Below the pieces are notes generated by a model. That model did no database searches, was not told the DNA's origin, and worked only from the letters and a program-made list of their open reading frames with translations. Of a DNA stretch of 64,000 nucleotides, positions 2,192 to 49,747 are shown piece after piece. The stretch is from the NCBI RefSeq assembly GCF_024648885.1, contig NZ_JANBBF010000013.1, positions 186,001 to 250,000 of the forward strand, given 5' to 3'. Position 1 is the first letter of the stretch, and the number at the start of each line of letters is the position of its first letter. The translations under genes were made by a program, and so were the position numbers. Origin of the DNA: Prauserella salsuginis (GTDB lineage: Bacteria; Actinomycetota; Actinomycetes; Mycobacteriales; Pseudonocardiaceae).

Positions 2192-2412
2192 CCCCGCCCC
2201 CGCGTGTTGCGCTTTCCGGGGCGCGTGTTCTGCATCCGGGACGCCGTGTCCTGCGTTCGGCACCGCGTGTTCCGCGCTCGGGCATGATGTGCTGCCCGTC
2301 GGCGTGGGCGCAACACGACCCCGGAGACGCGGTCACGCAGTAACGCGGCCATGAGGGGCGGTCGGGCGGGCGCAACACGGCCCCCGGAACCCGCAACACG
2401 GCCCCCGGAAGG
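2192..2412. repeat. Intergenic 21-bp-period repeat array (locus 1)
   Basis: The gap between convergent htpX and rfbA holds GTGTTSYGC-type units starting at 2204, 2225, 2246 and 2267, an exact 21-bp period, with a weaker fifth near 2289. Two units in the opposite orientation (GCAACACGGCCCCCGG) begin at 2372 and 2393, again 21 bp apart. Equivalent arrays occur at four other gaps in this window. No gene or clear terminator is visible. Confidence 0.85.
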
Positions 2413-3294
2413 TCAGCCGGTGGCGCCCGCGGCCTTCGCGATGTCCATGACGTAGTCGCCGTAGCCGCTCTTGGCGAGTTTCGCGCCGAGCTGGTGGCAT
2501 TCGTCGGCGTCGATGTAGCCCATCCGCAGCGCGACCTCTTCGAGACAGGCGATGCGCACGCCGGTGCGGTGTTCCAGCACCTGCACGAACTGGCCCGCTT
2601 CGAGCAGCGAGTCGTGCGTGCCGGTGTCCAGCCACGCGAACCCGCGGGAGAACTCGACCAGCCGTGCGCGGCCCTGGCGCAGGTACGTCAGGTTGACGTC
2701 GGTGATCTCCAGTTCGCCGCGCGCCGACGGTTTCAGCCCGCGCGCGATGTCGACCACCTGGTTGTCGTAGAGGTACAGCCCCGTGATCGCCTTGTTGGAC
2801 CGCGGCACCGCCGGCTTCTCCTCGATGGACAGCAGCGTGCCGTCCGGTGCGATCTCGCCGACGCCGTAGCGCTGCGGGTCCTTCACCGGGTAGCCGAACA
2901 GCACGCAGCCGTCGAGCCCCGTGGCCTCGGCCTGCAGCGTCCGCGAGAAGCCCTGGCCGTAGAAGATGTTGTCGCCGAGGATCAGTGCCACGTCGTCGTC
3001 GGCGATGAAGTCGGCGCCGATGACGAAGGCTTCGGCGAGGCCGTTCGGTGCGGCCTGCTCGGCGTAGGAGAGTTCGATGCCGAACTGGCTGCCGTCGCCG
3101 AGGAGACGCTGGAAGTTCGGCAGGTCCGAGGGCGTCGAGATGATCAGGATCTCGCGGATGCCGGCGAGCATCAGCACGGAGATCGGGTAGTAGATCATCG
3201 GCTTGTCGTAGACGGGCAGCAGCTGCTTCGACACGGCCTGTGTGATCGGGTGCAGCCGCGTTCCGCTGCCACCCGCCAGCACGATGCCCTTCAT
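2413..3294 (-). CDS. rfbA: Glucose-1-phosphate thymidylyltransferase
   Basis: Condenses dTTP with glucose-1-phosphate to dTDP-glucose, the first step toward dTDP-rhamnose for the cell-wall linker and for glycosylated products. The N-terminus carries the nucleotidyltransferase signature GGSGTRLHP (residues 8-16), followed by [15 protein letters not shown], the ALILGDNIF metal-binding stretch, EEKP and [10 protein letters not shown]. At 293 residues it is a full-length short-form enzyme. rfbB, rfbC and rfbD are not adjacent, which is common in actinobacteria. The nearest gene upstream on the same strand is an unrelated sialidase-like protein. Confidence 0.95.
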
Positions 3295-3355
3295 CGCCCG
3301 CCCTTCATGCCGTATCCGCCGAGAGGCTCAGCCTTCCGGGGGATCAGGGTACCGG

Positions 3356-4672
3356 CTAGCGGGACGGTCCGGTGCCGAAGAAGACCCGACAGCCGTCGTC
3401 GGCGCGGTCCGCGGTGGCCTGCAGCACGGCGTCCCCGCCGTCGACCGGCAGCAGGGACGGGCTGTAGTTCGGGCACGGGTCGTCCACCGGGTCGGCGACC
3501 TCGACCGGTGCGGGCACCTCGTACCACTCACCGGAGCCGGGGTCGTCGTTGGCGAGGATCGTCTTGCCGTTGCCAGCGTTGGGGGTGCCGTCGGCGTCGG
3601 CGTAGATCTGGCCGATGAGCAGGACCCGCGTGCCGTTCGGGCCGCCGGGGAAAAGCGAGATCGTCGGCGAGTGCCGGAAGTGGCGGCCCTGCGGGGTGGC
3701 GACCTGCGTGCCCGGGTCGGTCGGAAGACCGAAGTCCTCGCCGTCCTCGGAGATCTTGAAGTACGGATCGCAGAACCGCTCGCCGAAGTTGCAGATCTCG
3801 TAGCTGAAGTAGTGCCGCCCGTCGGGGAGTGCGCGCACGATCGGCATGCCGGGACGCACCTCCCACGGCGAGATCGTCAGTGTGCGGGTCGGCCTGCTCC
3901 AGTCGACGAGGTCGTCGGTGGAGCGGCGGGTGAGGAACTGGTCGAACTCGCGCTCGCCGCGTTCGTCGGCGTAGTGCATCTGCAGCGTGCCGGAGTCGTC
4001 CACGTCGAATTCCGGCTCCCACACGCCGGGCGGGCCGTAGGACGTCACCGGTTCGCCCGCGAAGTCCCACGAGCGCCCGGTGTCGGTGCTCGCCCAGATT
4101 CGGATGCCGATCCTGCGGGTGTCGCGCGGGGCCTTCTGCCGGTAGCTGGCCGCCCACAGCAGCGTGCCCTTCGGATACCGGCCGATGGTTCGCGGCAGTT
4201 CGTACAGCGTGCCGCAGCACATGCCGCTGCCGTAGCGGCCCTCGGGGTCACGGACCTCGCCGACCTGGCGGAAGTTGCGGCCCTCGTCGGTGCTCTCGTA
4301 GACCGGCGCGTAGTAGCCGGCCTCGTCGCTGCTGGTGACCGTGGCGAGGATGCGGCCGTTGTGATCGGCGTGGCCGTGCTGGGTGCGGATGAGCCGCGGG
4401 TAGGAGCCGTAGCCGTCGTGCAGCAACTGCCGGTCGGTGCCCTGTGCCACCGCGGGTGTCAGCGTCAGGCACAGCAGCGCGGCGGCGGCGACGGCGAATG
4501 CGCGGTGCAGGTGCGAGCGGATCCGCGCAGCGCGGCGCCAGGCGCGCGGGCCGCCGGCCGATGTCGTGCCGCCGGGCCCGCCGGACGGAGTGCCCGGCTC
4601 GGTGCTCGACGGACCGTCCGGTCCGGTGGTCGGGCTACTGGCAGGACGGTTGGTCGGCGGATGGATGTGCAC
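3356..4672 (-). CDS. Secreted sialidase-like (BNR/Asp-box) glycosidase
   Basis: Probable secreted six-bladed beta-propeller hydrolase. A Pro/Gly/Thr-rich basic leader precedes a signal peptide (hydrophobic FAVAAAALLCLTL, Ala-x-Ala before QGT). Two clear Asp boxes are visible, STDEGRNF and STDTGRSW, with a third degenerate copy (SEDGEDF). Paired Cys residues (CCGT; CNFGERFC; CPNY/CRVF) fit an exported protein. The substrate is not deducible, and the family also includes non-sialidase neuraminidase-fold proteins. The start is uncertain: GTG 4672 sits directly on the U-tract of a terminator hairpin and has no Shine-Dalgarno sequence; TTG 4711 is the only longer option. Confidence 0.7.
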   Translation of the reverse strand: MHIHPPTNRPASSPTTGPDGPSSTEPGTPSGGPGGTTSAGGPRAWRRAARIRSHLHRAFAVAAAALLCLTLTPAVAQGTDRQLLHDGYGSYPRLIRTQHGHADHNGRILATVTSSDEAGYYAPVYESTDEGRNFRQVGEVRDPEGRYGSGMCCGTLYELPRTIGRYPKGTLLWAASYRQKAPRDTRRIGIRIWASTDTGRSWDFAGEPVTSYGPPGVWEPEFDVDDSGTLQMHYADERGEREFDQFLTRRSTDDLVDWSRPTRTLTISPWEVRPGMPIVRALPDGRHYFSYEICNFGERFCDPYFKISEDGEDFGLPTDPGTQVATPQGRHFRHSPTISLFPGGPNGTRVLLIGQIYADADGTPNAGNGKTILANDDPGSGEWYEVPAPVEVADPVDDPCPNYSPSLLPVDGGDAVLQATADRADDGCRVFFGTGPSR

Positions 4673-4673
4673 G

Positions 4674-4705
4674 AAAAACCCCCGGTCTCCGACAGCGACC
4701 GGGGG
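4674..4705 (-). terminator. Rho-independent terminator (leftward)
   Basis: Stem CCCCCGGTC (4679-4687) pairs with GACCGGGGG (4697-4705) around a 9-nt loop, followed on the minus strand by five U. It lies downstream of yajQ and immediately before the sialidase-like start, so it separates the two transcripts or attenuates the second. Confidence 0.75.
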
Positions 4706-4891
4706 ATTCAAACACGATCAGGTGAAGAATGGTCAATGGTTCACGATCTTTTCACCGGGGCGGCAGAGCGATGTCCTTCGTCAGGGGTCCCGCATCGGGG
4801 TGGCTCTGCCGTGCCCGGCGGCGGGTTGTCCGCGGACGGCCGGCGACGTCGCGATCGCCGACCCAGGGCACCGCTCGTGCCCTGCCCGGCC

Positions 4892-5383
4892 TCACCGGTA
4901 GTTCATGAACTGCAGCGCGATGCCGAAGTCCTTCTCCTTCAACAGCGCGATCACGTCCTGCAGGTGGTCCTTCTTCTTGCCCGACACGCGCAGCTGATCC
5001 CCCTGGATCTGCGCCTGGACACCCTTCGGGCCCTCGTCCCGGATGTACTTGGAGATCTGCTTCGCCTTGTCCTGGTCGATGCCCTCGACGATCGAACCGG
5101 ACACCTTGTACGTCTTGCCCGACACCGCAGGTTCACCCGCGTCGAACGCCTTCATCGACACGCCACGCTTGACCAGCTTCTCCTTGAAGACCTCGACCGC
5201 GGCCTTCACCCGCTCCTCGGTCTCGGCCTCCACCACGACGGCGTTGTCACCCGACCACGCCACCGACGCGCCCGTGCCCCGGAAGTCGAACCGCGTCGAC
5301 AGCTCCTTGGCCGCCTGGTTCACCGCGTTGTCCACCTCCTGCCGGTCGACCTTGCTCACCACGTCGAACGATGGATCCGCCAC
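4892..5383 (-). CDS. YajQ family nucleotide-binding protein
   Basis: 163 residues, the standard YajQ length. It begins [13 protein letters not shown] and contains the conserved [55 protein letters not shown] and FGIALQF(M/T)NYR segments. YajQ has two ferredoxin-like domains; a Xanthomonas member binds cyclic di-GMP and acts as a transcriptional co-regulator. The start is GTG 5383 with GAGG upstream; the open frame continues to 5932 without coding character. A perfect 8-bp dyad lies 40 bp upstream and a terminator about 190 bp downstream. Confidence 0.92.
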
Positions 5384-5756
5384 GACTGAAGCACCTCGCT
5401 GTCTGGTTCCGGGGGTATTCGGGATGTGACCGCCGACGCAGTCACATCGGGTAAGCGTAGTTGTGCGGTCCGGGGATGTTGGTGACGCGGTCGGGGTGTG
5501 GGGCCGGTGGGCGTTGCATCGGCCGGATCGGTCGGTGAGGTGTGCTCGGCGTTCGGTTTCGGAGTGTTCGGGCTGATGGTGGACCCTTTCGTCCGGCAAC
5601 GCCGTCGTCGGCGGGAAGTGGCGCGTCCTCCGAGACGACCCCGGGACCCGAGGGCCGGATGTGACGTCCCAGCAAGCTCTGCGGCATGGCGACAGTGAGG
5701 CATGGTGACGGCGAAGGGCCTTCGGCCGCGCGGCCGAAGGCCCGACACCAGATACT
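5384..5756. other. 373-bp non-coding gap upstream of yajQ
   Basis: No convincing gene. It contains a perfect dyad, GATGTGAC (5423-5430) and GTCACATC (5441-5448), separated by 10 bp, suitably placed to be a yajQ operator or 5' leader hairpin. The far end holds the strong terminator of the MFS gene. Confidence 0.6.
5716..5743. terminator. Perfect 28-bp palindrome, likely terminator of the MFS/oxidoreductase operon
   Basis: GGGCCTTCGGCCGC is followed directly by its exact reverse complement. It sits 14 bp after the stop of the leftward MFS gene and marks the end of that operon. No U-tract is present on either side, as is usual in high-GC actinobacteria. Confidence 0.75.
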
Positions 5757-6995
5757 TCACGCCGCACTTGGGCGAGCAGCGGATGCTTCGGCCTCGGTGC
5801 GCGGCCGGTCATCTCGCACCCGCAGCATGACCGCTGCGCCGATGAGCGGCCCGACAGCCAGCGTGACGAACGCGGCGTAGAACGAATCCGTGAGTTGGAA
5901 GATGGGACCGACCACGGCAGGAACAGCGACACTGCCCAGCTGCCAGAAGGCGTTGACCGCGCCGGCCGCCGAGCCGGTGAGATGTTGTCCCACCAGAGTC
6001 GGTGTCATGGCGGCGGTCAGCGGACTGTATGCGTACGCCGTGAGTCCGAGTACGGGCGCCACCCAGAGGAACGCGGTGTAGCTGTCCAACGTGCCGAACA
6101 CCAGGAGCGTGACTCCGAACGCGGCCAGGATGATCGCGATCGGGATCCGCCTGCCGGATCCGAGTCGGTCCGTGACGACCCCGACCAACGGCTTCGCCGC
6201 GATCGCCACGCCGGCGAAGATCACCACCACCACTCCCGCGTCCACGGGGTCGATGCCGTTGCCCCTCACCATCAGGGTGTTGGACCACGTGATGAAACCG
6301 TAGGTGCCCCACAGGCCGCCGAACCCGGCGAGCCCGAGAAACAACAGGTCGCGGTTACGCCGCAGCGGACGTACGTCGGGTACCGCCCGCCGTGCCGGGG
6401 CGTCGCTCGTGCCGTCGTACTGTCCATTGCGGATGAATGCGAGGCAGAGGATCGCGATGACGATCGTCACCGCTCCGAACAGGTGGTACGAGGTCTCCCA
6501 GCCCGAGTTCACGATGAGACCGGGAACCACGGCGTTGGCGACGACCGTGCCGAGCGACGTCGCCGTCATGAACACGCCCGCAGCGAAACCCCGCGCTTCA
6601 GGCCGGAACCAGGCGGCGACGAGCTTGAGTCCGGCGGAGAAGTCGGCTCCCGCGAACAGGCCGAGTGCAGCCTGGATCGCCAGTCCCACGCCGATCGAGG
6701 TCGTCGAACCGAACAACATCATCAGTCCACCGGCGACCAGCGACGTCACTCCCAGTGTCAGTCGACCGCCGAGCCAGTCACTGCAGAACCCGCCGGCGGC
6801 GTTGGCCACGACGTAGCCGATGTAGTAACACGTCGCGAAGATGCCCAATGCGGCGAGCGGGACGTTCAGCGAGTCGCTCACCGCGGCCGAAGCGGGACCC
6901 CACGTCGACCGGTCCACAGAGGTCATGGTGAATGCCGCCCAGCACAGCAGCAGAACGACCCAGCGGTACGGGGAGTCGTGATTCGAGCGCATCAT
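5757..6995 (-). CDS. MFS transporter, anion:cation symporter-like
   Basis: A 412-residue twelve-helix major facilitator. The N-terminal motif VDRSTWGPA and the loop 2-3 motif SDWLGGR resemble the anion:cation symporter branch, which carries organic acids. The start is ATG 6995 (first of a tandem ATGATG, preceded by GGAGAATCG); an in-frame ATG at 7019 has no site. It lies 76 bp downstream of the FAD-oxidoreductase on the same strand and both are divergent from a LysR gene, an arrangement typical of an organic-acid uptake and oxidation unit. The substrate is unknown. Confidence 0.82.
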
Positions 6996-7071
6996 CGATT
7001 CTCCAGACTTCCTTGTCATGGGATGGAAACCAGCTCAGTGCGAACGCCTTAGGACTCCGCGCGGAGATTGA

Positions 7072-8322
7072 TCAGACGAGCGCGTCCTGACGACGCAGCT
7101 CGGCGCGAATCCGGGCAATGTCGTGCCGTTCCCCTTGGCTGTACTGTGCGGCGGCGACGCCGGCGGCATGTCCCGTCGCGAACGCTGTACCCATCACCCG
7201 AACCGAAGCGTATGCCTCGTCGTCGGAACTGGTCAGCCTGCCGACCGCCCACAGGTTGTCGGTTTCTCGCGCTCGGATCGCTCCGTAGGGAATGTCGTAC
7301 CAACCGCGACCGTCGATCGGCCGGTAGTTCGTGACGCCCGGCCCCGAGTGATCCTCGATCGGCCAGCCACAACGACCGATCGAATCCTGCGGGCGCTTGA
7401 CCGCCTGCAGCACGTCGGCCTCGCTCAGCTGGCAGCGTCCGTCCAGCCGCCGGCTCTCGCGAATGCCCAGTTGTGGCCCGGTCTCCACGAGATACGCCTG
7501 CGCCCACCCGGACAGGTGCTTGCGCAACGCGTCCAGATACAACCATGCCTGTCGCCGTGCGCTGGCCTCGTCCCTGCTGATCGCCGCTGCATCAAGCGCG
7601 TCGACCTGCTCGTCGACGAGCAGTGCGATGACGTCCTTGCTGACCGGCAGGTGTACGGCGATGCCGTAGTCACGCGCCAATGACACCCCGGTCTCGTGGC
7701 TATAGGCCGCGACCGCGGAACGCAGGCCTTCCCTGGACAGGTCGGCATCCTGGGCCACTCCACCGAAGCGGCACACCAGAGTGCTCGTCTGCCTGTCTTC
7801 GACAGGGACGACGCGGGTCGGGACGCCCGCGCACGACAGCAGCGCACCGTCTCCACTGGCGTCCACGAAAGCTGCCGCGGTGATGCGTTCGCGGCCACCG
7901 CGATGATGGACCTCGACCTCGGCGATGCCGTCCTCGTGACGGGTCGCGTCGATCAGCCGGCTGTGCAGCCGAACATCCACGCCTTCGTCCGCGAGCAACT
8001 CGTCGCAGACGATCTTCGTGGACTCGAGATCGAGCAGCACGATGCGGTTGCCCGTCCACCCCATCGTCTTCTCCTCGTAGACGCCCCGCGCGCGGAGGCG
8101 TTCGAGCACGTCCTGGCCGATGCCGGCAACGACCTGCGTGCCGCGTTGATCGTAGAAGCCACAGAACGTGAGCACCGAGCTGATCGTCGCCGCACCGCCC
8201 AGGTAGGGATACTGCTCGACCAGCCGCACGCGCGCCCCTGCCCGCGCCGCACCGGCGGCCGCAGCGACGCCACCCGCACCACCGCCGATAACAACGACGT
8301 CAAAATGCTCGACCTCTGCCAC
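7072..8322 (-). CDS. FAD-dependent oxidoreductase (FAD_oxidored type)
   Basis: A 416-residue flavoprotein. The N-terminal Rossmann motif is VVIGGGAGGVAAAAGAAR, followed by LVEQYPYLGGAAT, a hallmark of the FAD_oxidored family. A second FAD-contact region, AAAFVDASGDGALLSCAG, lies near residues 140-160, and a C-terminal GTAFATGHAAGVAAA closes the fold. The start is GTG 8322 behind GGAGGAG. Members of this family are dehydrogenases of poorly defined carboxylate substrates. The LysR-FAD-MFS trio is reminiscent of the tricarballylate tcuR-A-C layout, but no tcuB-like electron-transfer gene is present, so that assignment is only an analogy. Confidence 0.75.
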   Translation of the reverse strand: MAEVEHFDVVVIGGGAGGVAAAAGAARAGARVRLVEQYPYLGGAATISSVLTFCGFYDQRGTQVVAGIGQDVLERLRARGVYEEKTMGWTGNRIVLLDLESTKIVCDELLADEGVDVRLHSRLIDATRHEDGIAEVEVHHRGGRERITAAAFVDASGDGALLSCAGVPTRVVPVEDRQTSTLVCRFGGVAQDADLSREGLRSAVAAYSHETGVSLARDYGIAVHLPVSKDVIALLVDEQVDALDAAAISRDEASARRQAWLYLDALRKHLSGWAQAYLVETGPQLGIRESRRLDGRCQLSEADVLQAVKRPQDSIGRCGWPIEDHSGPGVTNYRPIDGRGWYDIPYGAIRARETDNLWAVGRLTSSDDEAYASVRVMGTAFATGHAAGVAAAQYSQGERHDIARIRAELRRQDALV

Positions 8323-8484
8323 TGTGCTCCTCCCGTCCGCTGGGGCCGCCGGTAGCCTCCGACCTGCTGTCTCGACACATTTGACGCCGTGCCGGCGGTG
8401 ATATCCAATACCGCTTGAACAGGGCGGGCATAACCAGAAGTTATAGATGGTCAGAAGTCATTGGCTTCGCCTCAGCGGCACTCC

Positions 8485-8564
8485 GGCACTGGGAAGCACG
8501 GGCACTGGGAGGCACGGGCACTGGGAAGCACGGGCACTGGGAGGCACGGGCACTGGGAGGCACG
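8485..8564 (+). repeat. Five 16-bp tandem repeats abutting the LysR start codon
   Basis: Five contiguous copies of GGCACTGGGARGCACG occupy 8485-8564, and the GTG start of the LysR gene is the very next base (8565). The last unit supplies the Shine-Dalgarno GGGAGG. The copies differ only at the R position (A,G,A,G,G). The upstream frame is open through the array from a TTG at 8415, so copy-number change could shift frames because 16 is not a multiple of 3. Confidence 0.9.
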
Positions 8565-9455
8565 GTGGAACTCAGGCAACTGCGTTACTTCACGGCGGTG
8601 TTCACCGAACGCTCGCTCTCCCGGGCAGCAGAGCGGCTGCTCATCTCGCAGCCCGCACTGACGAGGCAACTGCGGCAGCTCGAGCAGGAACTCGGCGCCA
8701 CGTTGTTCGAACGCATCCACACCGGGGTGCGCCCTACCGCGGCCGGCAGTGCACTCCACGAACACGCGCTGCAGATCCTGAGCATGGCAGATGCCTGCCG
8801 CCGGGTCGCACAATCCGCGGGCCCCGCACGGGAAATGGTTCGTGTCGGTCTGCCGCCGGGGCTCCCGCCCGGCTGGGTGCAGCGAGTGCTGGCCGAAACC
8901 CGGCGCCGCGTGCCGATGGCGGAACTCGCGTTCACCGACGCCAGTAGTACCGCTCAGCTCCGCATGGTCCGCGAAGGGCACCTGGACGTCGGATTGGTCC
9001 ACCAGACCCCACCGTCGAGTCTGCAGCACAGGGAACTCTTCGCGGATCCGTTCGGGCTGGCCATCCGGCCAGGCCACGCGCTGCGCGGGCGGACCGGCTG
9101 CCGCCTCGCAGATCTCGACGGGATGCGCGTACTCGCGCATGCCCGTGATCAGGTACCTACCGAACACGACCGGCTGGTCGCCGCCGCCCACGACCTCGGC
9201 ATCGCTCCGGAGTGGCACTTCGCCCACTTCAGTGAGAACGCGTTGGCATGCGCGCTGGCCGCCGACGCCCACGCAGTACTGCTCACCGAGGCGAGCGCCG
9301 CTCGATTGCTCCCTGATTGGTCATGGCTTCAGCTGACAGACCCACCCTTCTTGATGCGCACCTGGCTCGTGCGTCATCAGACGACCAGGTCGATCGTGAT
9401 GGACATCAGCGAAGTCATGATCGACACCGAGCGTTATGGGCCGGACGTCGCCTGA
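8565..9455 (+). CDS. LysR-family transcriptional regulator
   Basis: 296 residues. The N-terminal winged helix-turn-helix (LRQLRYFTAVFTERSLSRAAERL.ISQPALTRQLRQLE, residues 2-42) is followed by a two-lobed substrate-binding domain. It is divergent from the FAD-oxidoreductase/MFS operon, which it probably controls in response to the transported acid. I start at GTG 8565 because GGGAGG lies at the right spacing inside the last 16-bp repeat; extension to TTG 8415 would add 50 residues of translated repeat. The 242-bp divergent region contains the repeat array and probably both promoters. Confidence 0.88.
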   Translation: MELRQLRYFTAVFTERSLSRAAERLLISQPALTRQLRQLEQELGATLFERIHTGVRPTAAGSALHEHALQILSMADACRRVAQSAGPAREMVRVGLPPGLPPGWVQRVLAETRRRVPMAELAFTDASSTAQLRMVREGHLDVGLVHQTPPSSLQHRELFADPFGLAIRPGHALRGRTGCRLADLDGMRVLAHARDQVPTEHDRLVAAAHDLGIAPEWHFAHFSENALACALAADAHAVLLTEASAARLLPDWSWLQLTDPPFLMRTWLVRHQTTRSIVMDISEVMIDTERYGPDVA

Positions 9456-9663
9456 TCCGTCATGCGGGACTCGACGGACCTGTGCGCTGTTCGCCGACCC
9501 AACTCCGGCAGCTCCCAGCGAAGCCGACGATGCGTGAGTGGGGTGATCGGACGCGGCCGTGAACGTGGCCGCATCGGGTAGGTGCAGCCATCGGGTACCC
9601 GGGTGCGGACGCGCCCGGCGCAGGCGGTACGCTGTCATCTTGCCGGACACGGAGCCGGCACCC

Positions 9664-9745
9664 GGCGGGTTGCCCGAGCGGCCAAAGGGAGCTGACTGTA
9701 AATCAGCCGGCACTGCCTTCGGGGGTTCGAATCCCTCACCCGCCA
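9664..9745 (+). tRNA. tRNA-Tyr (GUA)
   Basis: An 82-nt class II tRNA with a long variable arm. Acceptor GGCGGGT pairs with ACCCGCC, discriminator A at 9745, CCA not encoded. The anticodon loop CTGTAAA reads GTA at 9698-9700. Its 3' part, from the anticodon stem onward, is the integration site of the element to the right, which restores the gene intact. Confidence 0.97.
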
Positions 9746-9746
9746 C
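9693..9746 (+). repeat. attL: 54-bp direct repeat in the tRNA-Tyr 3' end
   Basis: These 54 bases are identical to 32210-32263. The match runs from the anticodon stem to one base past the tRNA. The first mismatch at each side (9692 C versus 32209 G; 9747 A versus 32264 T) sets the limits. Confidence 0.95.
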
Positions 9747-9752
9747 ACATCG

Positions 9753-9798
9753 GGAAATGCCCCGGTGACCTGGAAAGACAGGTCGCCGGGGCATTTCC
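9753..9798. terminator. Strong hairpin terminator between tRNA-Tyr and int
   Basis: A 19-bp stem, GGAAATGCCCCGGTGACCT (9753-9771) with 9780-9798, has one G-U style mismatch and an 8-nt loop. It lies just inside attL, so the element supplies it, and it can end both tRNA-Tyr and the convergent integrase transcript. Confidence 0.85.
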
Positions 9799-9866
9799 AT
9801 GTTGTCCGGCTGTCTCCGGCTCGATCCGGTCCGATCCGGCTGGCTGTCCCCAATGCGTCCCCACGG

Positions 9867-11236: not shown

Positions 11237-11418
11237 GCTGCGACCTCCCGTTCGTCGAGCCAGCGTTCGAGTTCGGTGTGGCGGATACGGATCTCCCCGT
11301 TCGGCAACTTGATGTACTTCGGCGCGCGTCCCTTGGCGCGCCAGTCGTAGAACGTCGACGGTGCGATGCCTAGCTCGTGGCAGAACTCGCGGACCGTGAG
11401 GAAGCGGCGGGTAGCCAT
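11233..11418 (-). CDS. xis: Excisionase / MerR-like helix-turn-helix protein
   Basis: 61 residues, a single winged helix-turn-helix of the HTH_17 type (FLTVREFCHELGIAPSTFYDWRAKGRAPKYIKLPNGEIRIRHTELERWLDE). Such proteins act as recombination directionality factors and bend DNA at att sites. The stop overlaps the presumed integrase start (GTGA), the usual xis-int coupling. The promoter probably lies in the iteron-bearing gap just upstream. Confidence 0.88.
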   Translation of the reverse strand: MATRRFLTVREFCHELGIAPSTFYDWRAKGRAPKYIKLPNGEIRIRHTELERWLDEREVAA

Positions 11419-11506
11419 GTGCGGGTCTCCCTGAGGTGCGTGCGGGCGGGGGAGGCGACGAACACGGTGACTCCTTCCTGTCTGGGTGCACGGAGGAAAC
11501 GAACTT

Positions 11507-37606: not shown

Positions 37607-37613
37607 TCGGTCC

Positions 37614-40966: not shown

Positions 40967-41149
40967 AGGCCCGCTTGAGGACACGCGCGGCGGTCCTCGC
41001 CGGGAGAACCGCCGGGAGAACCGCAGGTGAGCCGCCGGGTATCCGCGCCGCTTGTGGGCCCACGCGAATCGCGTGTTTCCCCTCGTCGTCGCGGCGCTCC
41101 TAGCGTCGGTGACGTCACAACGGCGAAACCGATACGAGGGAGTCACACC

Positions 41150-41905: not shown

Positions 41906-41925
41906 TCGCTGCGAAAGGCTGACGC

Positions 41926-42783
41926 GTGGGTCTGGACCTGTACAAGCTCGACCACCTCGTCGCCGTGGCCGAGGAGGGCAGCTTCACGCGAGCGGCCGCA
42001 CGGCTGCACATGTCGCAGCAGGCACTGTCCACTTCGGTCCGTGCGCTGGAGCGCCAAGTGGGCGTCGACCTGTTGGCACGCGGTTCCGCCGGCGTGACGC
42101 TGTTGCCCGCGGGGGAAGCGCTGCTGGCCGACGCGCGCGTGCTGCACGGCGTCGCGCGGTCGGCCGTGCAGCGGGCACGCCGCATCGGCCGCGGCGAGCG
42201 CGAGACGCTGCGCATCGGGCACACGCCCGCCGTCACCGGTGACGAGGTGACCGCGCTGTTGCCGGCCGCGGGCAGCGACACGCGCGTCAACCAGCGGTAC
42301 CCGGACGAGCTGACCCGCGAGTTGCTCTCCGGGGAGCTGGACCTCGGGTTGTGCCGCGCGATGCCACCCGCGCGCGGCCTGGCCCGCACGCTCGTGGTGC
42401 GGCAGCGGCTCCACGTTGCCGTGGCCGAAGGGCACCCGCTGGCCTGCCGCACCCAGGTTCAGCTCTCCGAGCTCGCCGACCAGGAGATCATCGTCTGGGG
42501 CGAACCGGGACGTTCCGGATACACGGACCTGCTCATCGGCCTGTGCCGTGGCGCGGGATTCGAGCCGCACACGCGCCGGAACCCGGTGCAGGGCACACCG
42601 CCCGTCACCGCCGTGACCGGTACCGGCGGTGTCGCGTTCGTCACCGCGGCACCGGGACCCGCCGCGGGCGGTGGCGTGCGGGTGCTGGAACTGGCGCCCC
42701 CTGCCCACGTCCCGCTGCACGCGCTGTGGCCGCAGCACACGGCCTCCGACGCGAGGGACGCGTTCCTCGAATCGGTCAGCTGA
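41926..42783 (+). CDS. LysR-family regulator
   Basis: 285 residues with N-terminal helix-turn-helix (LYKLDHLVAVAEEGSFTRAAARLHMSQQALSTSVRALERQVG) and a substrate-binding domain. It follows the SDR by 20 bp and is followed by a perfect terminator, so the two form a bicistronic unit. Regulation of its own operon is probable. Confidence 0.88.
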   Translation: MGLDLYKLDHLVAVAEEGSFTRAAARLHMSQQALSTSVRALERQVGVDLLARGSAGVTLLPAGEALLADARVLHGVARSAVQRARRIGRGERETLRIGHTPAVTGDEVTALLPAAGSDTRVNQRYPDELTRELLSGELDLGLCRAMPPARGLARTLVVRQRLHVAVAEGHPLACRTQVQLSELADQEIIVWGEPGRSGYTDLLIGLCRGAGFEPHTRRNPVQGTPPVTAVTGTGGVAFVTAAPGPAAGGGVRVLELAPPAHVPLHALWPQHTASDARDAFLESVS

Positions 42784-42789
42784 CCCGTC

Positions 42790-42828
42790 GGCGGCGCCCT
42801 CCCCACCGCAGCCGGGGAGGGCGCCGCC
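42790..42828 (+). terminator. Terminator of the SDR-LysR operon
   Basis: GGCGGCGCCCTCCCC (42790-42804) pairs perfectly with GGGGAGGGCGCCGCC (42814-42828), 9-nt loop, starting seven bases after the LysR stop codon. Confidence 0.88.
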
Positions 42829-43027
42829 GCATACTGAGGCCGCCAGGGGTCGACACGATCATGAGCAGGGGGCCTCGATGACACGGGGAATCGATCGGGC
42901 CGGTGACGCCGAGCGGGTGGCCGACGCAGGCCGGGCAGGCACCGACCGGACGGCGGCGTCCAGGACGGTCCCGTCGCACCGCGGCGAGCCCGGGGCCGTG
43001 GTGTGCCGGGTGGCGGTGTCCGTGTCA

Positions 43028-43132
43028 GCGGTGTCCCGCGCGGCGGCGTCCCGGGGTGCGGCGTCCCGAGGTGCGGTGTCCCGGGGTGTGACGTCCAGGG
43101 CGACGGCCTCCCGGCGTGCGACGTCAGGGAAC
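43028..43132 (+). repeat. 15-bp tandem repeat array before the MFS gene
   Basis: Seven units of a GCGGYGTCCCGGGGT-type 15-mer, the central four nearly identical and the outer ones degenerate. A 92-codon frame starting at ATG 42878 runs through it and ends in a GTGA overlap with the MFS start, but its product is only repeat-encoded Ser-Arg-Ala/Gly runs. Confidence 0.75.
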
Positions 43133-43152
43133 GCGGTGCCCGAGACGGCAGC

Positions 43153-44355
43153 GTGACCGCCGCGGTGCCGGGGGAGTCGGGTCGCACCGCGCGCTGGTAT
43201 CCGCACCTGTGGGCGGGCACGCTGCTGACGCAGGCCGCCTACAACGCCGCGCGCATGCTGGTGTCCTACCGCGTGCTCGAGCTCGGCGGCGACGGCACGG
43301 CGCTCGGGGTGATCACGGCCCTGTTCGCGCTGCTGCCGCTCGTCGTCGCGGTGCCGGTCGGCAGGGCGGTCGACAACGGCCATCCCGCCGGCGTGCTGCG
43401 GGCCGGGGTGGCCGCGACCGTCGCGGCGTTGCTCGTGCTGGCCCTCAGCACCGACCTCGTCGTGCTCGCGGCCGGCAACATCCTCCTCGGGTTCGCACAG
43501 ATCCTCGTCACGGTCGCGGGGCAGGGATTCATCCCGCTGCTGTCGGACGCCCGCGACATCGACCGCCGCTTCGCGGGCTGGGCGCTCGCCACGTCGATCG
43601 GCCAGACGGCCGGACTGCCCGTCGCGGGCCTCGTGACCTCGGCGAGCAGCGATTCCGGCGGAGTGTCGACCACGGCGGGGCTGCTGGCCCTCGCGGTGCT
43701 GGCCGCGCTCGCGGTGCCGTCGGCGCTGCTGATGCCCGTCGTGGGAGCACAGCGGGCACGCGCCGAACAGCACGGCGCCGCCCAGTCGGTGCCCACCATG
43801 CTCGCCACACCGGGTATGCGCCCCGCGATGTTCAGCAGCCTCGTCGTACTGACGTCGATGGACGTGCTCGCCGCGTTCCTGCCCGTGCTCGGCCACCAGT
43901 ACGGCTTCGGTGTGCTGACCGTGACCGTGCTGCTGATGCTGCGTACCGGCTCCGCGATCGTCGCGCGCACCTTCCTGCCCGCACTGCTGCGCGTGGTGCC
44001 GCGGCGGTGGATGCTGTTGGCCGCGACGCTGTGTTCGGCCGCTCCTATGGCGCTGATCCCTGTGATCCCGAACCCGGTCGTGATCGGTGTGTTCCTGGTG
44101 GTCGTCGGGTTCCTCTGGGGCGTGGGGCAGCCACTCACGATGAGCTGGGTGGTGAGCCTGGTGACCGAGCGCAGCCGCGCCTCGGCGCTGTCGCTGCGGC
44201 TCACCGGGAACCGCCTCGGGCAGGTGCTCGTGCCGCTCGGCGCGGGTGGCATCGCAGGAGTGGCGGGCGCCGGGTCGGTGTTCCTCGTGACCGCGGCGCT
44301 GCTCGGCCTCTCGGGAGGATTCACCTGGCGCGCGGTGCGCGGCACGAACCTGTGA
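43153..44355 (+). CDS. MFS transporter
   Basis: 400 residues, twelve predicted membrane helices, beginning ARWYPHLWAGTLLTQAAYNAARMLVSYRVLELGGDGTALG. The loop 2-3 motif is VGRAVDNGHP. It resembles DHA1-type drug or metabolite exporters. GTG 43153 is the best start although its ribosome-binding site is poor; upstream lies the 15-bp repeat array. No regulator is adjacent. Confidence 0.78.
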   Translation: MTAAVPGESGRTARWYPHLWAGTLLTQAAYNAARMLVSYRVLELGGDGTALGVITALFALLPLVVAVPVGRAVDNGHPAGVLRAGVAATVAALLVLALSTDLVVLAAGNILLGFAQILVTVAGQGFIPLLSDARDIDRRFAGWALATSIGQTAGLPVAGLVTSASSDSGGVSTTAGLLALAVLAALAVPSALLMPVVGAQRARAEQHGAAQSVPTMLATPGMRPAMFSSLVVLTSMDVLAAFLPVLGHQYGFGVLTVTVLLMLRTGSAIVARTFLPALLRVVPRRWMLLAATLCSAAPMALIPVIPNPVVIGVFLVVVGFLWGVGQPLTMSWVVSLVTERSRASALSLRLTGNRLGQVLVPLGAGGIAGVAGAGSVFLVTAALLGLSGGFTWRAVRGTNL

Positions 44356-44459
44356 CCTCGTGGCCCGCGGGTCCTGCAGTCGTGCGCGCGTCTCCTGCGC
44401 CCGCCCGTCGCCCGGCCACCGCCCCTCACTGAAGCGCTGGCGCGCGACTGTGCCCTCGC

Positions 44460-44502
44460 GCGTGTTCTGCGTTCGGACCCGCGTGTCCTGCGTTCGTGCA
44501 GG
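44460..44502. repeat. 21-bp-period repeat (locus 2), two units
   Basis: GTGTTCTGCGTTCGGACC at 44462 and GTGTCCTGCGTTCGTGC at 44483, exactly 21 bp apart, in the gap between the MFS and formaldehyde dehydrogenase genes. They match the htpX/rfbA array in sequence and period. Confidence 0.7.
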
Positions 44503-44643
44503 CCGGTCCGCCCGTGCGGCGGCGTGGCCGGCGTGGCGATCGCCGAGTGGTTGTTCGCCGAATGGTGTTCACCGTGCCGCGCTACTACGTTGACGTATGC
44601 GTGGATACGCATCCAACCGGCCAGCAGACAAAGGGGTTCGCAA

Positions 44644-45861
44644 ATGCCGGACAATCGCGTTGTCGTTTACAAGTCGCCCGGTGAAGTCGCGGTGGAATCG
44701 ATCGATTACCCGAAACTGGAATTGCCCGGCGACGTTGTCGAAGGACTCGGAATCAAGAAGAAAGCGCCGCACGCGGCTATTTTGAAGATCGTCACGACGA
44801 ACATCTGTGGCAGCGATCAGCACATGGTGCGAGGGCGCACGACCGCGCCCGTCGGCCAGAGTCTCGGCCACGAAATCACCGGCGAGGTCGTGGAAGCCGG
44901 CGAGGACGTCCTGTTCGTCAACCAGGGTGACATTTGCTCGGTGCCGTTCAACATCGCGTGCGGCCGGTGCCGGATGTGCAACGAGGGAAAGACCGGGATC
45001 TGCCTCAACGTCAATCCCGCACGCCCCGGCGCGGCCTACGGATACGTCGACATGGGCGGCTGGATCGGCGGTCAGGCCGAATATGTCATGGTGCCGTTCG
45101 CCGATTTCAACCTGCTCAAATTCCCGGATCGGGACCAGGCGTTGGAGAAAATCCGCGACCTGACGATGCTGTCCGACATTTTCCCCACCGGATACCACGG
45201 TGCGTACACGGCTGGGGTCAGCACCGGCTCGACCGTCTACGTGGCTGGTGCGGGACCCGTCGGACTGGCGGCCGCACACGCCGCACAACTGCTCGGGGCG
45301 TCGGCGGTGATCGTCGGCGACATGATCCCGGAGCGGCTCGGACAGGCGCGGAGTTTCGGATGTGAAACGGTCGACCTGCGCAACGACGCGCCGTTGGCGG
45401 ACATGATCGAGCAGATCGTCGGTGAACCCGAGGTGGACGCGGCCGTCGACGCCGTCGGCTTCGAAGCGCGCGGACACGGCAAGGACGCCGGTGAACAGCC
45501 CGCGACCGTGCTCAACGACGTGATGGGTATCGCGAGGGCGGGCGCATCGCTCGGTATCCCCGGCCTGTACGTCACCGGCGACCCCGGCGCTCCCGACGAG
45601 AACGCCAAGGTCGGCCAGCTCGGCGTGCGGATCGGGCTGGGATGGGCCAAGTCCCACTCGATGACCACCGGCCAGTGCCCGGTCAAGCAGTACAACCGGA
45701 AGCTGATGAACATGATCCTCAGTGGCAAGGCCGACATCGCCAAGGCCGTCAACGCCACCACGATCTCGCTCGACGAGGCGCCGCAGGGGTACCAGGAGTT
45801 CGACAGCGGCGTGGCCCGCAAGTTCGTCATCGACCCGCACGGGATGGCCCCGGCGGCCTGA
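44644..45861 (+). CDS. fdhA: Glutathione-independent formaldehyde dehydrogenase
   Basis: Zinc-dependent medium-chain dehydrogenase oxidising formaldehyde to formate with tightly bound NAD. 405 residues. Signature TTNICGSDQHMVRGRTTA carries catalytic Cys, GHEITGEVVEAG the His-Glu pair, and CGRCRMCNEGKTGIC the four structural-zinc Cys. The Rossmann motif is VAGAGPVGLAAAHAAQLLGA; PVKQYNRKLM is family-specific. ATG 44644 follows AAAGGGG. It stands alone with a terminator 60 bp downstream. The role is formaldehyde detoxification. Confidence 0.94.
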   Translation: MPDNRVVVYKSPGEVAVESIDYPKLELPGDVVEGLGIKKKAPHAAILKIVTTNICGSDQHMVRGRTTAPVGQSLGHEITGEVVEAGEDVLFVNQGDICSVPFNIACGRCRMCNEGKTGICLNVNPARPGAAYGYVDMGGWIGGQAEYVMVPFADFNLLKFPDRDQALEKIRDLTMLSDIFPTGYHGAYTAGVSTGSTVYVAGAGPVGLAAAHAAQLLGASAVIVGDMIPERLGQARSFGCETVDLRNDAPLADMIEQIVGEPEVDAAVDAVGFEARGHGKDAGEQPATVLNDVMGIARAGASLGIPGLYVTGDPGAPDENAKVGQLGVRIGLGWAKSHSMTTGQCPVKQYNRKLMNMILSGKADIAKAVNATTISLDEAPQGYQEFDSGVARKFVIDPHGMAPAA

Positions 45862-45922
45862 CACCCCCGACCCGTGGCGGCCGGTCAGGCCGCGGCGGCT
45901 GGGCAGATTGGGAGGCTCGGCA

Positions 45923-45963
45923 GGCTGGGGTGCGGATGCGACCGCCGCGACCGCACCCCAGCC
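45923..45963 (+). terminator. Terminator of fdhA
   Basis: GGCTGGGGTGCGG (45923-45935) pairs with CCGCACCCCAGCC (45951-45963) around 15 nt, 60 bp after the stop codon. No U-tract. Confidence 0.75.
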
Positions 45964-45977
45964 GTGAGTGTGAAGCC

Positions 45978-46047
45978 GTGTTGCGTTTTACGGGGGCCGT
46001 GTTGCGCCCTCCGGGGGCCGTGTTGCGGGTTCGGGGGCCGCGTTGCG
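45978..46047. repeat. 21-bp-period repeat array (locus 3)
   Basis: Units of GTGTTGCGNNNTNCGGGGGCC-like sequence start at 45978, 45999 and 46020, plus a partial one at 46040, in the gap between fdhA and the phosphatase gene. The GTGTTGCG core is followed by a GGGGGCC block, the reverse complement of the GCAACACGGCCCCCGG units at loci 1 and 4. Confidence 0.85.
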
Positions 46048-46149
46048 TCGCCTGTCGCCCGCTCGGCGCTCCGGTGAGCTTGGCGCGTGGTTCGCGTACT
46101 GGGCACTCCCGCCGCGCAACGAGGGCCGGACGCGACGCGTCCACTCCGC

Positions 46150-46854
46150 ATGGAACGACATGTGGGATGGGAAGGCAGTTACAACGCACGTGACCTCGGC
46201 GGCCTGCCGACGGCTGACGGCGGCATGATCACGTGGGGTGCGGTCGTCCGGTCGGAGGAACCGCGGCTGTTGACCGAGGCCGGGTGGCAGGCGGTGCGGG
46301 AACACGGGGTGCGGACCGTCGTCGACCTGCGCAACGACGACGAACGCGCCGACGTCGTCGTGCCGAGCGGGATCGATGTGGTGCACGCACCGCTCGACCC
46401 GGTCGGCGACGACTTCTGGGCCTACTACGCCGAAACCGGGCTGCACGCCACGCCCCTGTGCTACCGCGAGCTGGTCGACCGGCGTCCGGACCTCGTCGTC
46501 ACCGCGGTGCGCGCCGTGGCGGCCGCCCGGCCGGGCGGCGTCCTGGTGCATTGCGCGAGCGGACGCGATCGCACCGGCCTGCTGGTACTGATCCTGCTCA
46601 GCCTCGTCGGCGTGCCCGGTGCCGCGATCGCCGACGACTACGAACTCAGCCGCGAACGGCTCCGTCCGCTGTGGGCGCAGCTCGGCAGACCGGGCGACGA
46701 GCCGAAGATCCTCGACCTGCTCGCCCGTCACGGCACCACGCCGCGGGAGGCGTTCCTCGACGTGCATGCCGGCCTCGATGTCGAGGGTGTGCTGCATGCC
46801 GGCGGTGCCGACGACGCCGACCTCATGGCCCTGCGCCGCCGCCTGTTGGCGTGA
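46150..46854 (+). CDS. Tyrosine phosphatase family protein (PTP-like)
   Basis: 234 residues. SYNARDLGGLPTADGG at the start and VHCASGRDRTGLLVLILL (Cys-x5-Arg loop) are characteristic of the actinobacterial MptpB/DUF dual-specificity phosphatases, which act on phosphotyrosine or phosphoinositides. DDYELSRERL follows. ATG 46150 is preferred, GTG 46087 is possible; neither has a good ribosome-binding site. It is flanked by two repeat loci and convergent with DUF309. Confidence 0.85.
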   Translation: MERHVGWEGSYNARDLGGLPTADGGMITWGAVVRSEEPRLLTEAGWQAVREHGVRTVVDLRNDDERADVVVPSGIDVVHAPLDPVGDDFWAYYAETGLHATPLCYRELVDRRPDLVVTAVRAVAAARPGGVLVHCASGRDRTGLLVLILLSLVGVPGAAIADDYELSRERLRPLWAQLGRPGDEPKILDLLARHGTTPREAFLDVHAGLDVEGVLHAGGADDADLMALRRRLLA

Positions 46855-46860
46855 CGCGGC

Positions 46861-46986
46861 GCAACACGGCCCCCGGGATCTGCAACACGGCTCCCGGAAT
46901 CCGCAACACGGCCCCCGGGATCGGCAACACGGGCCCTGGGATCTGCAACACGGGCTCCGGAATCCGCAACGCGCGGCCCGAGGGGC
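46861..46986. repeat. 21-bp-period repeat array (locus 4), six units
   Basis: Six consecutive 21-bp units begin GCAACACGG at 46861, 46882, 46903, 46924, 46945 and, degenerate, GCAACGCGC at 46966. The array fills almost the whole 139-bp gap between the convergent phosphatase and DUF309 genes. This is the longest and cleanest array of the family. Confidence 0.92.
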
Positions 46987-46993
46987 GCAACGG

Positions 46994-47479
46994 TCACGGG
47001 CGCAGGCGCGGGGCGATCGTCGACGCGTCGGGCGGTTCGGTGCGAGCCGGCATGCCGGAGGCGAGGGTCGTCGCCCACTCGCACAGTCCTGCGATGTCGA
47101 TTCCGTGCGGCGCCTCGCTCGTGAACGGTTCGATCGACTCGGCGCCGCGCGTGAGCAGCGAGGCCGCGCCGGTGAAGTTGCCACGCGCCGCGTGGGTCAG
47201 TCCGACCGCCAGCTGCGCCAGTCCGCGCCACAATCCGCGTTCGGCATCCGGCCCCGACTTCCAGGCGTCCTCGAACACCTCGTGCGCGTGGAACGGTTTG
47301 CCGTCGTCGAGCAGCTCCTGTGCTTCGGTGACCGTCGCCTCCGGGGTGCGCTCCACACCCTCCGGCGCTCGCTCGACACCCGCCGCTCCGTACGGCAACG
47401 GCCTGCCGAGGCCGTCGCGCGGGCGCGCGTTCCGCGCCCTGCCTTCCTCGTCCCTGTCACGCTGCAGCCGTCCACTCAC
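46994..47479 (-). CDS. DUF309 domain protein
   Basis: 161 residues. After a charged leader the core reads AQELLDDGKPFHAHEVFEDAWKSGPDAERGLWRGLAQLAVGLTHAARGNFTGAASLL, the DUF309 signature with conserved His-Glu and Trp. The family is a small helical bundle of unknown function, often described as possibly metal-dependent. GTG 47479 is chosen. A 13-bp repeat array lies upstream. Confidence 0.82.
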   Translation of the reverse strand: MSGRLQRDRDEEGRARNARPRDGLGRPLPYGAAGVERAPEGVERTPEATVTEAQELLDDGKPFHAHEVFEDAWKSGPDAERGLWRGLAQLAVGLTHAARGNFTGAASLLTRGAESIEPFTSEAPHGIDIAGLCEWATTLASGMPARTEPPDASTIAPRLRP

Positions 47480-47528
47480 GCCCCGAGTCTGACACGCCCG
47501 TTCGCGCGCGATCGTGGGCGAGTTCGCC

Positions 47529-47619
47529 CCGGCCACTTCCCGCGGCCACTTCCCGCGGCCACTTCCCGCGACCACAGCTCGCGACCACAGCTCGCGACCA
47601 CGGCCCGCGACCACGGTCC
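47529..47619. repeat. 13-bp tandem repeat array, seven units
   Basis: Seven units of 13 bp, GCGGCCACTTCCC (three) grading into GCGACCACAGCTC (two) and GCGACCACGGYCC (two), between DUF309 and ctaD. The stepwise divergence suggests ongoing slippage expansion. No gene is present. Confidence 0.88.
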
Positions 47620-47659
47620 CCGGCCATGCCACAGCCCGCGACGTCGGCAGCCGGCTCGG

Positions 47660-49468
47660 TCAGGGCCGCTCGGTGTCCGGTCCTGCTGAGTCCGGATCCG
47701 CGGACCCAGCCGCGTCCGTGGTCTGCTTCGACGCCGGTTTCGGCGTGGAGTCGTGGGGTTTGACCTTGCCGGTGAACGTGATGTGGCCCTCGCCGTGGAT
47801 GCGTTCCAGCATGTGCGGGTAGTGCAGCTCGAACGCCGGCCGTTCGGAGCGGATGCGTGGCAGCTCGTGGAAGTTGTGCCGCGGCGGCGGACACGTGGTC
47901 GCCCATTCGAGGGAGTTGCCGTGGCCCCACGGGTCGTCGGCTTCGACGGGGTCGCCGAACCGCCAGCTCCGCATCAGATTCCACACGAACGGCAGCATCG
48001 ACGCGCCGAGGATGAACGCGCCGATGGTCGACACGGTGTTGAGCGCGGTGAAGCCGTCGCTGGGCAGGTAGTCGACGTAGCGGCGCGGCATGCCCTCCGA
48101 CCCGAGCCAGTGCTGCACGAGGAACGTCGTGTGGAAGCCGACGAACGTCAGCCAGAAATGCAGCTTGGCCAGCGGTTCGTTCATCATCTTGCCGGTGAAC
48201 TTCGGGAACCAGAAGTAGATGCCGGCGAACGTCGCGAACACGATCGTGCCGAACAGGACGTAGTGGAAGTGGGCGACGACGAAGTAGCTGTCGTGCACGT
48301 GGAAGTCGATCGGCGGCGCGGCGAGCAGCACCCCGGTCAGCCCGCCGAGCAGGAACGTCACCATGAAGCCCAGCGACCACAGCATCGGCGACTCGAACGT
48401 GATGCGGCCCTTCCACAGAGTGCCGATCCAGTTGAAGAACTTCACTCCCGTCGGCACCGCGATCGCGAACGTGAGCAGCGAGAAGAACGGCAGCAGCACC
48501 GCGCCGGTGGCGAACATGTGGTGTGCCCACACGGCGAACGACAGCGCCGTGATGCCGATCGTCGCCAGCACCATCAGCCGGTAGCCGAACAGGGGCTTCC
48601 TGCTGAACACCGGGATGATCTCGGTGACGATGCCGAAGAACGGCAGCGCCACGATGTACACCTCGGGATGGCCGAAGAACCAGAACAGGTGCTGGTACAG
48701 GATCGCGCCACCGTTGGCGGGGTCGAACACGTGCGCGCCGAGCATGCGGTCGGCGTACAGGCCGAGCAGCGCCGCGGTCAGGATCGGGAACGCCGCGAGC
48801 ACCAGGACGCTGGTGAACAGGATGTTCCAGGTGAAGATCGGCATCCGCCACATCGTCATGCCCGGTCCGCGCAGGCAGACGATCGTCGTGATCATGTTGA
48901 CCGCGCCGAGGATCGTGCCGAGGCCGGACACGACCAGTCCCATGATCCACAGATCGCCGCCGACGCCGACGGAGAACTGGGCGCGCGACAACGGCGCGTA
49001 GGCCGTCCAGCCGAAGTCGGCGGACCCCGCGGGCGTGATGAGCGAACTCAGCACGATCAGCCCGCCGAACAGGAACAGCCAGTACGAGAACGCGTTCAGC
49101 CGCGGGAACGCCACGTCGGGCGAACCGATCTGCAGCGGCAGCACCAGGTTCGCGAACGCGAACACCACCGGCGTCGCGTAGAGCAGCAGCATGACCGTGC
49201 CGTGCATCGTGAACAGCTGGTTGTACTGCTCCGGCGACAGGAACTGCTGTCCGGGCCGCGCCAGCTCGCCGCGCATGAGCAGGGCCATCAACCCGCCGGC
49301 CATGAAGAAGGCCAGCGACGTGGCCATGTACATCATGCCGATGACCTTGTGGTCCGTCGTGCGCGCGAGGCTGAGCATGCGCAGCCCGCCCTTGCGCGGT
49401 GGCGGCTCGTCGCGGGAGATCCGCGTCGGGGTCACCTCGGTCGGGGGCGTTACCGAGTGCGTGGTCAC
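47660..49468 (-). CDS. ctaD: Cytochrome c oxidase subunit I
   Basis: Catalytic subunit of the aa3 terminal oxidase. 602 residues, twelve membrane helices. Haem a ligand His in [10 protein letters not shown]; CuB and cross-linked Tyr in [14 protein letters not shown]; the His pair in WAHHMF; haem a3 and a ligands in [15 protein letters not shown] proline-rich N-terminus and a C-terminal 45-residue hydrophilic tail ([18 protein letters not shown]) are typical of actinobacteria. The other oxidase genes are elsewhere, as usual in this group. Confidence 0.97.
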
Positions 49469-49644
49469 GGTGGCACCTCCACCAGTACCTTCACCTGCGG
49501 CGGGGGACGGTCCCTTTTCGACGGTAGGTTCGCGCGGCCGTGATCGCAGCGCTTCGTCGTCGCGCGGGCGTCCCGGCGGGACCGGTGGCGACGACGGCGC
49601 ACCCGTGAGGGGCGGCGGTCAGCAGACTACGGCTCCCGGAACCC

Positions 49645-49747
49645 GCAACACGTCGACGCGAACGCAGGACACGCGCGTCTGAACGCAGAACACGCGGGTC
49701 TGAATGCAGGACACGCGGGTCTGGGTGCAGGACACGCGGGTCTGGGT
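49645..49747. repeat. 21-bp-period repeat array (locus 5)
   Basis: Units start at 49645 (19 bp), 49664, 49685, 49706 and 49727 with exact 21-bp spacing (GCAGGACACGCGGGTCTG type). The last unit ends one base before the GNAT stop codon. One GGCTCCCGGAACCC segment just before links this locus to the GCAACACGG subtype. Confidence 0.88.

Follow-up and report, generated by a model that had tools for sequence, protein, structure and literature searches.

The best-known intergenic repeats of bacteria, the REP-like sequences, are palindromic and linked to transposases. Plasmid iterons are direct repeats about two helical turns apart, and the Sal boxes bound by TTF-I are tandem protein sites beyond rRNA genes that stop polymerase, in eukaryotes and in rDNA only. 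REP, BIME, and REPIN elements are described as having hundreds of copies in gaps at gene ends, with proposed roles in termination and supercoiling (PMC2817692, PMC3733652, PMC8266576), and REPs as palindromes that alternate in orientation within BIMEs (PMC2817692). The arrays of 21-bp units found in Prauserella salsuginis are likewise high-copy, extragenic, and near gene ends. However, they consist of non-palindromic, head-to-tail units with little folding. A REP/RAYT system was rejected because there is no palindrome and the RAYT domain (Y1_Tnp, PF01797) is absent from the P. salsuginis genome; the domain was missing from 8 of the 10 genomes searched, with one in G002 and one in G006. Like minisatellites or VNTRs, the arrays have tandem units, a copy number that varies between species, and occasional runs of identical units, but they share a single consensus over many loci, appear to have only slight extra likeness within arrays, and have a constrained core. 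They resemble iterons in being direct repeats at about two-turn spacing and differ in being dispersed over the chromosome at gene ends rather than located at one origin. The Sal-box arrays bound by TTF-I are comparable only as a model of how the arrays might work. No account of 21-bp direct-repeat arrays at actinobacterial gene ends was found in the literature searched, which largely lay outside subscription journals. Across a small group of actinobacteria, the place and spacing of the arrays are largely retained between species as the sequence changes, a pattern suggestive of a boundary signal of a kind not described before, and not of junk.

The window, the whole stretch of DNA analyzed (64,000 nt; G000:C6:186001-250000, G000 being the P. 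salsuginis genome), comes from a genome of 5.64 Mb; the GC content is 69%. A sequence-only reading had proposed that five of its gaps carry tandem units, and units are present in all five at the positions it gave. The shared cores that it described were recovered as two types in this genome, type A (GTGTTGC) and type B (GTGTYCTGC), although further cores occur in other species. The run of C or G that it saw in most units holds for type A (GTGTTGCG) but is restricted to that type. Rfam at the gathering threshold had no match in the arrays and identified four tRNAs in the window.

Two arrays jointly fill the first, convergent gap. The plus-strand array (2204-2287) lies 13 nt beyond the stop of an M48 peptidase gene (1271-2191) and has intact cores at 2204 (type A) and at 2225 and 2246 (type B), with a degenerate unit at 2267. 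The opposed minus-strand array (2310-2412), with three type A cores (2310-2316, 2372-2378, and 2393-2399), is immediately beyond the stop of a nucleotidyltransferase gene (2413-3294, minus strand). Two type B cores on the plus strand (44462-44503) are found beyond an MFS gene (43003-44355), and a further plus-strand array (45978-46047), beyond a dehydrogenase gene (44644-45861), has intact type A cores at 45978, 45999, and 46020, followed by a fourth that is degenerate. The minus-strand array at 46861-46986 has five intact type A cores as well as degenerate ones and is located in the convergent gap between genes 46162-46854 (plus strand) and 46994-47479 (minus strand); the equivalent gap also has arrays in G003, G004, and G005. 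The last array (49645-49747, minus strand), with four type B cores and one type A core, is beyond a GNAT gene (49749-50780, minus strand), and its equivalent gap has arrays in G003, G004, G005, and G006.

Immediately 5' of the array at 44462-44503 is a copy of element X (44396-44459, plus strand; E value of 7.4e-14, this copy being itself one of the search seeds), a dispersed repeat of ~64 bp around CCGGCCACCGCCCCTCACGGACGCGCTGGCGCGCGACTG that is separate from the 21-bp family. Element X frequently adjoins or sits within 21-bp arrays, in the same direction. A weaker copy is present in the window at 56232-56285, and others are at L050 7860-7922, L045 8589-8706, L057 7392-7330 and 13635-13698, and L055 10466-10528. 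Matches were confined to Prauserella stretches, with none at an E value of 0.01 in the stretches of G001, G009, and G195 that were searched. The window also contains unrelated tandem repeats at 8485-8578 (period of 16) and 47533-47614 (period of 13).

In the window, the starts of 14 same-strand pairs of GTGTTGC or GTGTYCTGC cores are offset by exactly 21 bp, whereas order-4 Markov simulations (n = 100) gave 0.01 such pairs on average and at most 1. A search at this spacing across the whole genome, as the sequence-only reading had suggested, located 84 type A pairs (GCAACACG, spacer of 11 to 13) and 182 type B pairs (GCAGRACACG, spacer of 10 to 13); the reversed type A and type B patterns, searched as a control, had no match in the whole genome. 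Over 564 kb, 158 of the 197 same-strand core pairs no more than 130 bp apart had a spacing that deviated from a multiple of 21 by at most 1 bp. Successive cores were 21 bp apart in 62 of 76 cases and 42 bp apart in 4, and the description of the spacing as almost always exactly 21 bp is therefore fair. The same period was recovered when no core was specified. Exact 8-mers in gaps of the window and of 20 evenly placed 20-kb stretches, chosen regardless of arrays, recurred most often at lag 21 (623 per 100,000 positions), followed by lag 42 (422) and lag 15 (202), compared with 52 at lag 21 in coding sequence. The words most frequent at lag 21 in gaps were the type A and type B cores. Neither a different period nor a chance frequency of units was seen in this genome, and the pair counts, together with the placing described below, uphold the proposal of a dispersed family in both orientations, at 3' ends and in convergent gaps, at far above chance frequency.

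Written in array sense, the type A consensus is about CGTGTTGCGGATTCCGGGGGC and that of type B about CGTGTYCTGCACTCRGCCCCG; the final third is variable, and the consensus has no dyad. Constraint was counted for every unit position, in phase, that lies between the first and last intact cores of an array, whether or not the unit itself was intact; an array was left out if the distance between these two cores was not a multiple of 21. Among 149 units lying between outer cores in six genomes, 136 had an intact core. Between type A cores, 94 of 104 units were intact, compared with ~10% predicted for a core with the variability of the spacer. Conservation in these 104 units was 0.96 to 1.00 at positions 1 to 8 and averaged 0.72 at positions 9 to 21, with values outside the core of 0.91 at C14, 0.99 at G17, and 0.88 at G19. 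Intact cores were also counted in small numbers of other units: 21 of 23 type B units (C14 and C20 at 1.00), 9 of 10 type B units in G009, and 13 of 14 units of a type C described below in G001 (G17 at 1.00). The constrained bases of the units recur in helical phase, in line with an array of cooperative protein sites, although a 22-bp period in genus g22 (see below) fits less well.

Placing was evaluated in 564 kb, about a tenth of the genome, with gene calls from a self-built codon-usage caller that were uncurated. The 37 arrays in this sample comprise 17 in convergent gaps, 11 tandem-sense, 5 tandem-antisense, 2 divergent, and 2 in called open reading frames (ORFs). The claim that units lie only between genes thus held for 35 of the 37 arrays and failed for the 2 that overlap called ORFs. 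Convergent gaps make up 13% of gap bases but contain 17 of the 35 arrays (P = 5e-7), whereas only 2 of the 35 lie in divergent gaps, which account for 29% of gap bases (P = 0.001). The nearer stop is the co-oriented one for 13 of the 17 arrays in convergent gaps. In tandem gaps of this genome alone, the 11 sense and 5 antisense arrays do not differ significantly (P = 0.21). The six genomes together have 111 arrays, of which 43 lie in convergent and 6 in divergent gaps, 39 are tandem-sense and 10 tandem-antisense, 12 fall within called ORFs, and 1 is at an edge. These counts share orthologous loci and are not independent, so that pooling related genomes overstates significance. An upstream gene is co-oriented with 82 of 98 arrays, and the distance from its stop to the first core has a median of 22 nt (quartiles of 12 and 56.5).

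The sequence-only reading had warned that arrays may be misannotated, and called ORFs do span 12 of the 111 arrays. Among three array-spanning ORFs that were checked, a Pfam domain starts at or just after the array in two, and the third had no Pfam match. The two ORFs overlapping arrays in P. salsuginis are probably over-extended starts. These two arrays would probably add to the antisense class because each Pfam domain starts where the array lies or shortly downstream of it. Annotators should be aware that ORFs may run through arrays without a stop. Single cores were also considered as a mark inside genes when a first count suggested that type A cores were about twice as frequent as expected in three genomes with type A arrays. 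This idea was abandoned; after gene ends were trimmed and array genes dropped, GTGTTGC ranked at the 88th and GCAACAC at the 90th 7-mer percentile in the P. salsuginis genome, which is unremarkable.

Conservation between species was evaluated only in conserved gaps, those in which the genes on either side have orthologues that are also neighbors in the other genome. In comparison with G006, an array was present in both species in 6 gaps, in P. salsuginis only in 1, in G006 only in 1, and in neither in 59. There were no disagreements with G005 (both 9, neither 46), G003 (both 4, neither 16), or G004 (both 3, neither 10). The majority orientation of the array was the same in 22 of 22 comparisons, and three antisense arrays in tandem gaps retain the antisense orientation in G006 and G005. 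At these conserved array gaps, the number of units and the core type differ between species. Units are slightly more alike at orthologous loci (0.735 for type A and 0.750 for type B) than at other loci (0.683 and 0.696) and about as alike as units within arrays (0.747 and 0.772). The 4-fold-site divergence between the compared species is 0.19 to 0.28. The loci are thus old and kept while their units turn over. In array gaps aligned with G006, the array part aligned worse than the remainder in 4 of 7 cases and better in 3. Wholesale replacement of arrays between species was rejected. At the 49645 locus, the order of type B followed by type A is retained in several species as read by eye, and gain and loss of units therefore suffices. 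In the gap at G000:C6 ~121850-122150, four type A units are present in G000 and G005 and none in G006, which has a hairpin instead (read by eye).

The turnover of units bears on the strongest rival to roadblock or insulator sites, namely, that the arrays are a self-expanding, largely nonfunctional, minisatellite-like family that spread long ago and is tolerated between gene ends and the next promoter. This is possible, and we consider it unlikely rather than remote. Unit number at one place differs between species, most arrays sit in gaps far from promoters, and the second dispersed element, element X, occupies these gaps too. Runs of identical units point to recent expansion, as at G000:C3:5136-5313, where eight consecutive type B pairs (nine units) have an identical spacer, a sign of recent local expansion. 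Likeness is also slightly higher within than between arrays in six of nine comparisons. However, that excess is small (0.01 to 0.05) and absent in the other three, the core is constrained inside arrays, and the period stays constant while the core differs. Presence and orientation are also conserved despite the observed 4-fold-site divergence.

An RNA-level 3' signal, in which the units act once transcribed, by protein binding or by slowing polymerase, and thereby set transcript ends through Rho-dependent termination, pausing, or 3'-end protection, is improbable. It would accommodate the co-oriented upstream gene of 82 of 98 arrays and, in tandem gaps, the predominance of sense (39) over antisense (10) arrays (six genomes, shared loci), and the type A unit may partly fit a polymerase pause consensus. 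On the other hand, folding of the arrays is weak, with a mean z of -0.85 in sense and -0.44 in antisense over 21 arrays and a sense z below -2 in only 4 of them. Antisense arrays are retained in three species, and type A is G-rich, unlike the C-rich rut site. Arrays are also often past a hairpin: hairpins were found at 7 of 22 array ends, and the hairpin precedes the array in 4 of these 7. Antisense retention in G006 and G005 and this order of hairpin and array favor action on DNA over action on RNA.

An intrinsic terminator formed by the array itself was rejected on the basis of the little folding and a weak avoidance of hairpins seen in convergent gaps only. Strong hairpins occur at 7 of 36 convergent ends with an array versus 52 of 139 without (P = 0.049), and at 10 of 37 tandem ends with an array versus 47 of 251 without (P = 0.27); an earlier hairpin count found no difference between ends with and without arrays. 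The arrays are not a general terminator, as an array is present at only 20 of the 159 gene ends that have at least 150 bp downstream and hairpins are only weakly avoided. At L041 ~1551-1624, the 3' arm of a strong hairpin doubles as the first GTGTTCTGC unit of the array (read by eye).

It is quite improbable that the arrays are bound by a protein that shapes the nucleoid or chromosome without taking a direct part in transcription and that they are located at gene ends merely because there is free space. The two-turn period, the in-phase constraint, and the hundreds of copies would suit such a protein, but free space alone does not account for the depletion from divergent gaps, the orientation preference, or the conservation of that preference. 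Repeat-peptide genes or C-terminal extensions, suggested by the equivalence of 21 bp to seven codons and by the ORFs spanning 12 of 111 arrays, are scarcely credible and were rejected, because the constraint map has no codon rhythm, the distances from stop to first core fall in all three phases (38, 22, and 22), and spacings of 20, 22, 41, and similar values exist.

The period, the in-phase constraint on units, the placing, and the interspecies conservation of presence and orientation were established by computation. From them we tentatively favor, without regarding it as probable, the explanation that the arrays are phased DNA sites for a putative protein that would insulate or end transcription units, the protein, its binding, and the block all being inferred. 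The in-phase constraint, the fixed spacing with other cores, the retained antisense arrays, and the arrays past some hairpins suggest recognition at the level of DNA, and the placing suggests a boundary between transcription units; together these two considerations favor sites for a roadblock or insulator protein. The arrays would offer a sequence-specific protein one binding site in every two turns of the helix and would mark where one transcription unit ends, at its 3' side, and whatever follows begins. Once occupied, they would probably halt read-through RNA polymerase by serving as a roadblock or insulator, chiefly between convergent genes. The recognized core may vary by lineage while the 21-bp spacing remains constant. 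The sequence-only reading had proposed that a protein binds cooperatively along one side of the DNA, which is compatible with the in-phase constraint on the core, C14, and G17 and with the 21-bp period under different cores; the 22-bp period in g22 speaks against it. That period, the presence of an array at only 20 of 159 ends, the inconsistent avoidance of hairpins, the nonsignificant sense bias in tandem gaps of this genome, the weaker placing in G001, and two further G001 loci with no array in the species examined count against roadblock or insulator sites.

Other cores at the same spacing were found in G001 and G009. G001, which belongs to the same genus (91% complete), has no type A or type B pairs. 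Its gaps have a period maximum of 21 bp with the core GTGTCAGC/GTGTTGGC (type C). Nine G001 arrays, from 160 kb and one 7-kb region, include 3 convergent, 1 tandem-sense, 1 tandem-antisense, 2 divergent, and 2 at edges; the placing rule is weaker in this genome, on small numbers. The gaps of G009 (genus g4, inferred to be Haloechinothrix) also have a maximum at 21 bp, with the core CGAGTCGC in two arrays, both beyond a co-oriented gene, and G009 has type B arrays as well; gaps in other genera are less certain because the gene caller was trained on the P. salsuginis genome. At one 3' end (L158 9524-10330), where all arrays are in sense, G001 has four type C units, whereas P. salsuginis has two intact type A units with a degenerate one between them, G006 has six type A units, and G004 has four intact ones. 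In G005 and G003, two in-phase degenerate type B units, uncounted by the core search, can be seen by eye at this end; nothing is present in G002, and none were found in G009. At the two other G001 array loci tested, there was no array in any other species examined.

Type A is present in 6 of 7 genomes of the genus and had no match in 53 genomes from elsewhere in the family and order; the reversed type A control had one match in this search, in G044. Type B was found in 23 of 297 genomes of the family, namely, 5 in the genus, 3 in g4 (21 bp), 3 in g22 (22 bp), and 12 with a single, chance-like pair. In genus g22 (G195, G183, and G153, with genomes of 7 to 11 Mb), 10 of 10 pairs of type B cores have the 22-bp period, and four G195 loci that were read comprise two tandem-sense, one convergent, and one tandem-antisense. 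When 27 stretches of 20 kb from 20 genomes were surveyed to cover further genera in the family, there was no lag-21 maximum comparable to that of Prauserella, with weak lag-21 counts in G011 (16) and G064 (6) and a lag of 22 in G183 and G153, for which the stretches had been picked around known arrays. Among named records, the type B repeat was found in 73 stretches, which come from four Prauserella species, Haloechinothrix halophila, two metagenome-assembled genomes (MAGs) labeled Actinophytocola, and, with one stretch each, a Verrucomicrobia MAG and another actinomycete MAG. Carriage by viruses was rejected: at least 120 stretches were in viral contigs, and 78 of 80 among the matches listed were a single pair, taken as background by judgment rather than from a computed expectation.

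One interpretation of the arrays, which we regard as rather doubtful, is a lineage-restricted boundary system in which the specificity of the roadblock protein was replaced several times (GTGTTGC, GTGTYCTGC, GTGTCAGC/GTGTTGGC, and CGAGTCGC) while spacing, place, and orientation were kept. If so, the putative roadblock protein and hundreds of chromosomal sites would have changed together, and a family with fixed spacing and place and differing recognition sequences would be a natural experiment in the co-change of a protein and its sites. Such a family could also bring to light a new mechanism by which GC-rich actinobacteria terminate or insulate their transcription units.
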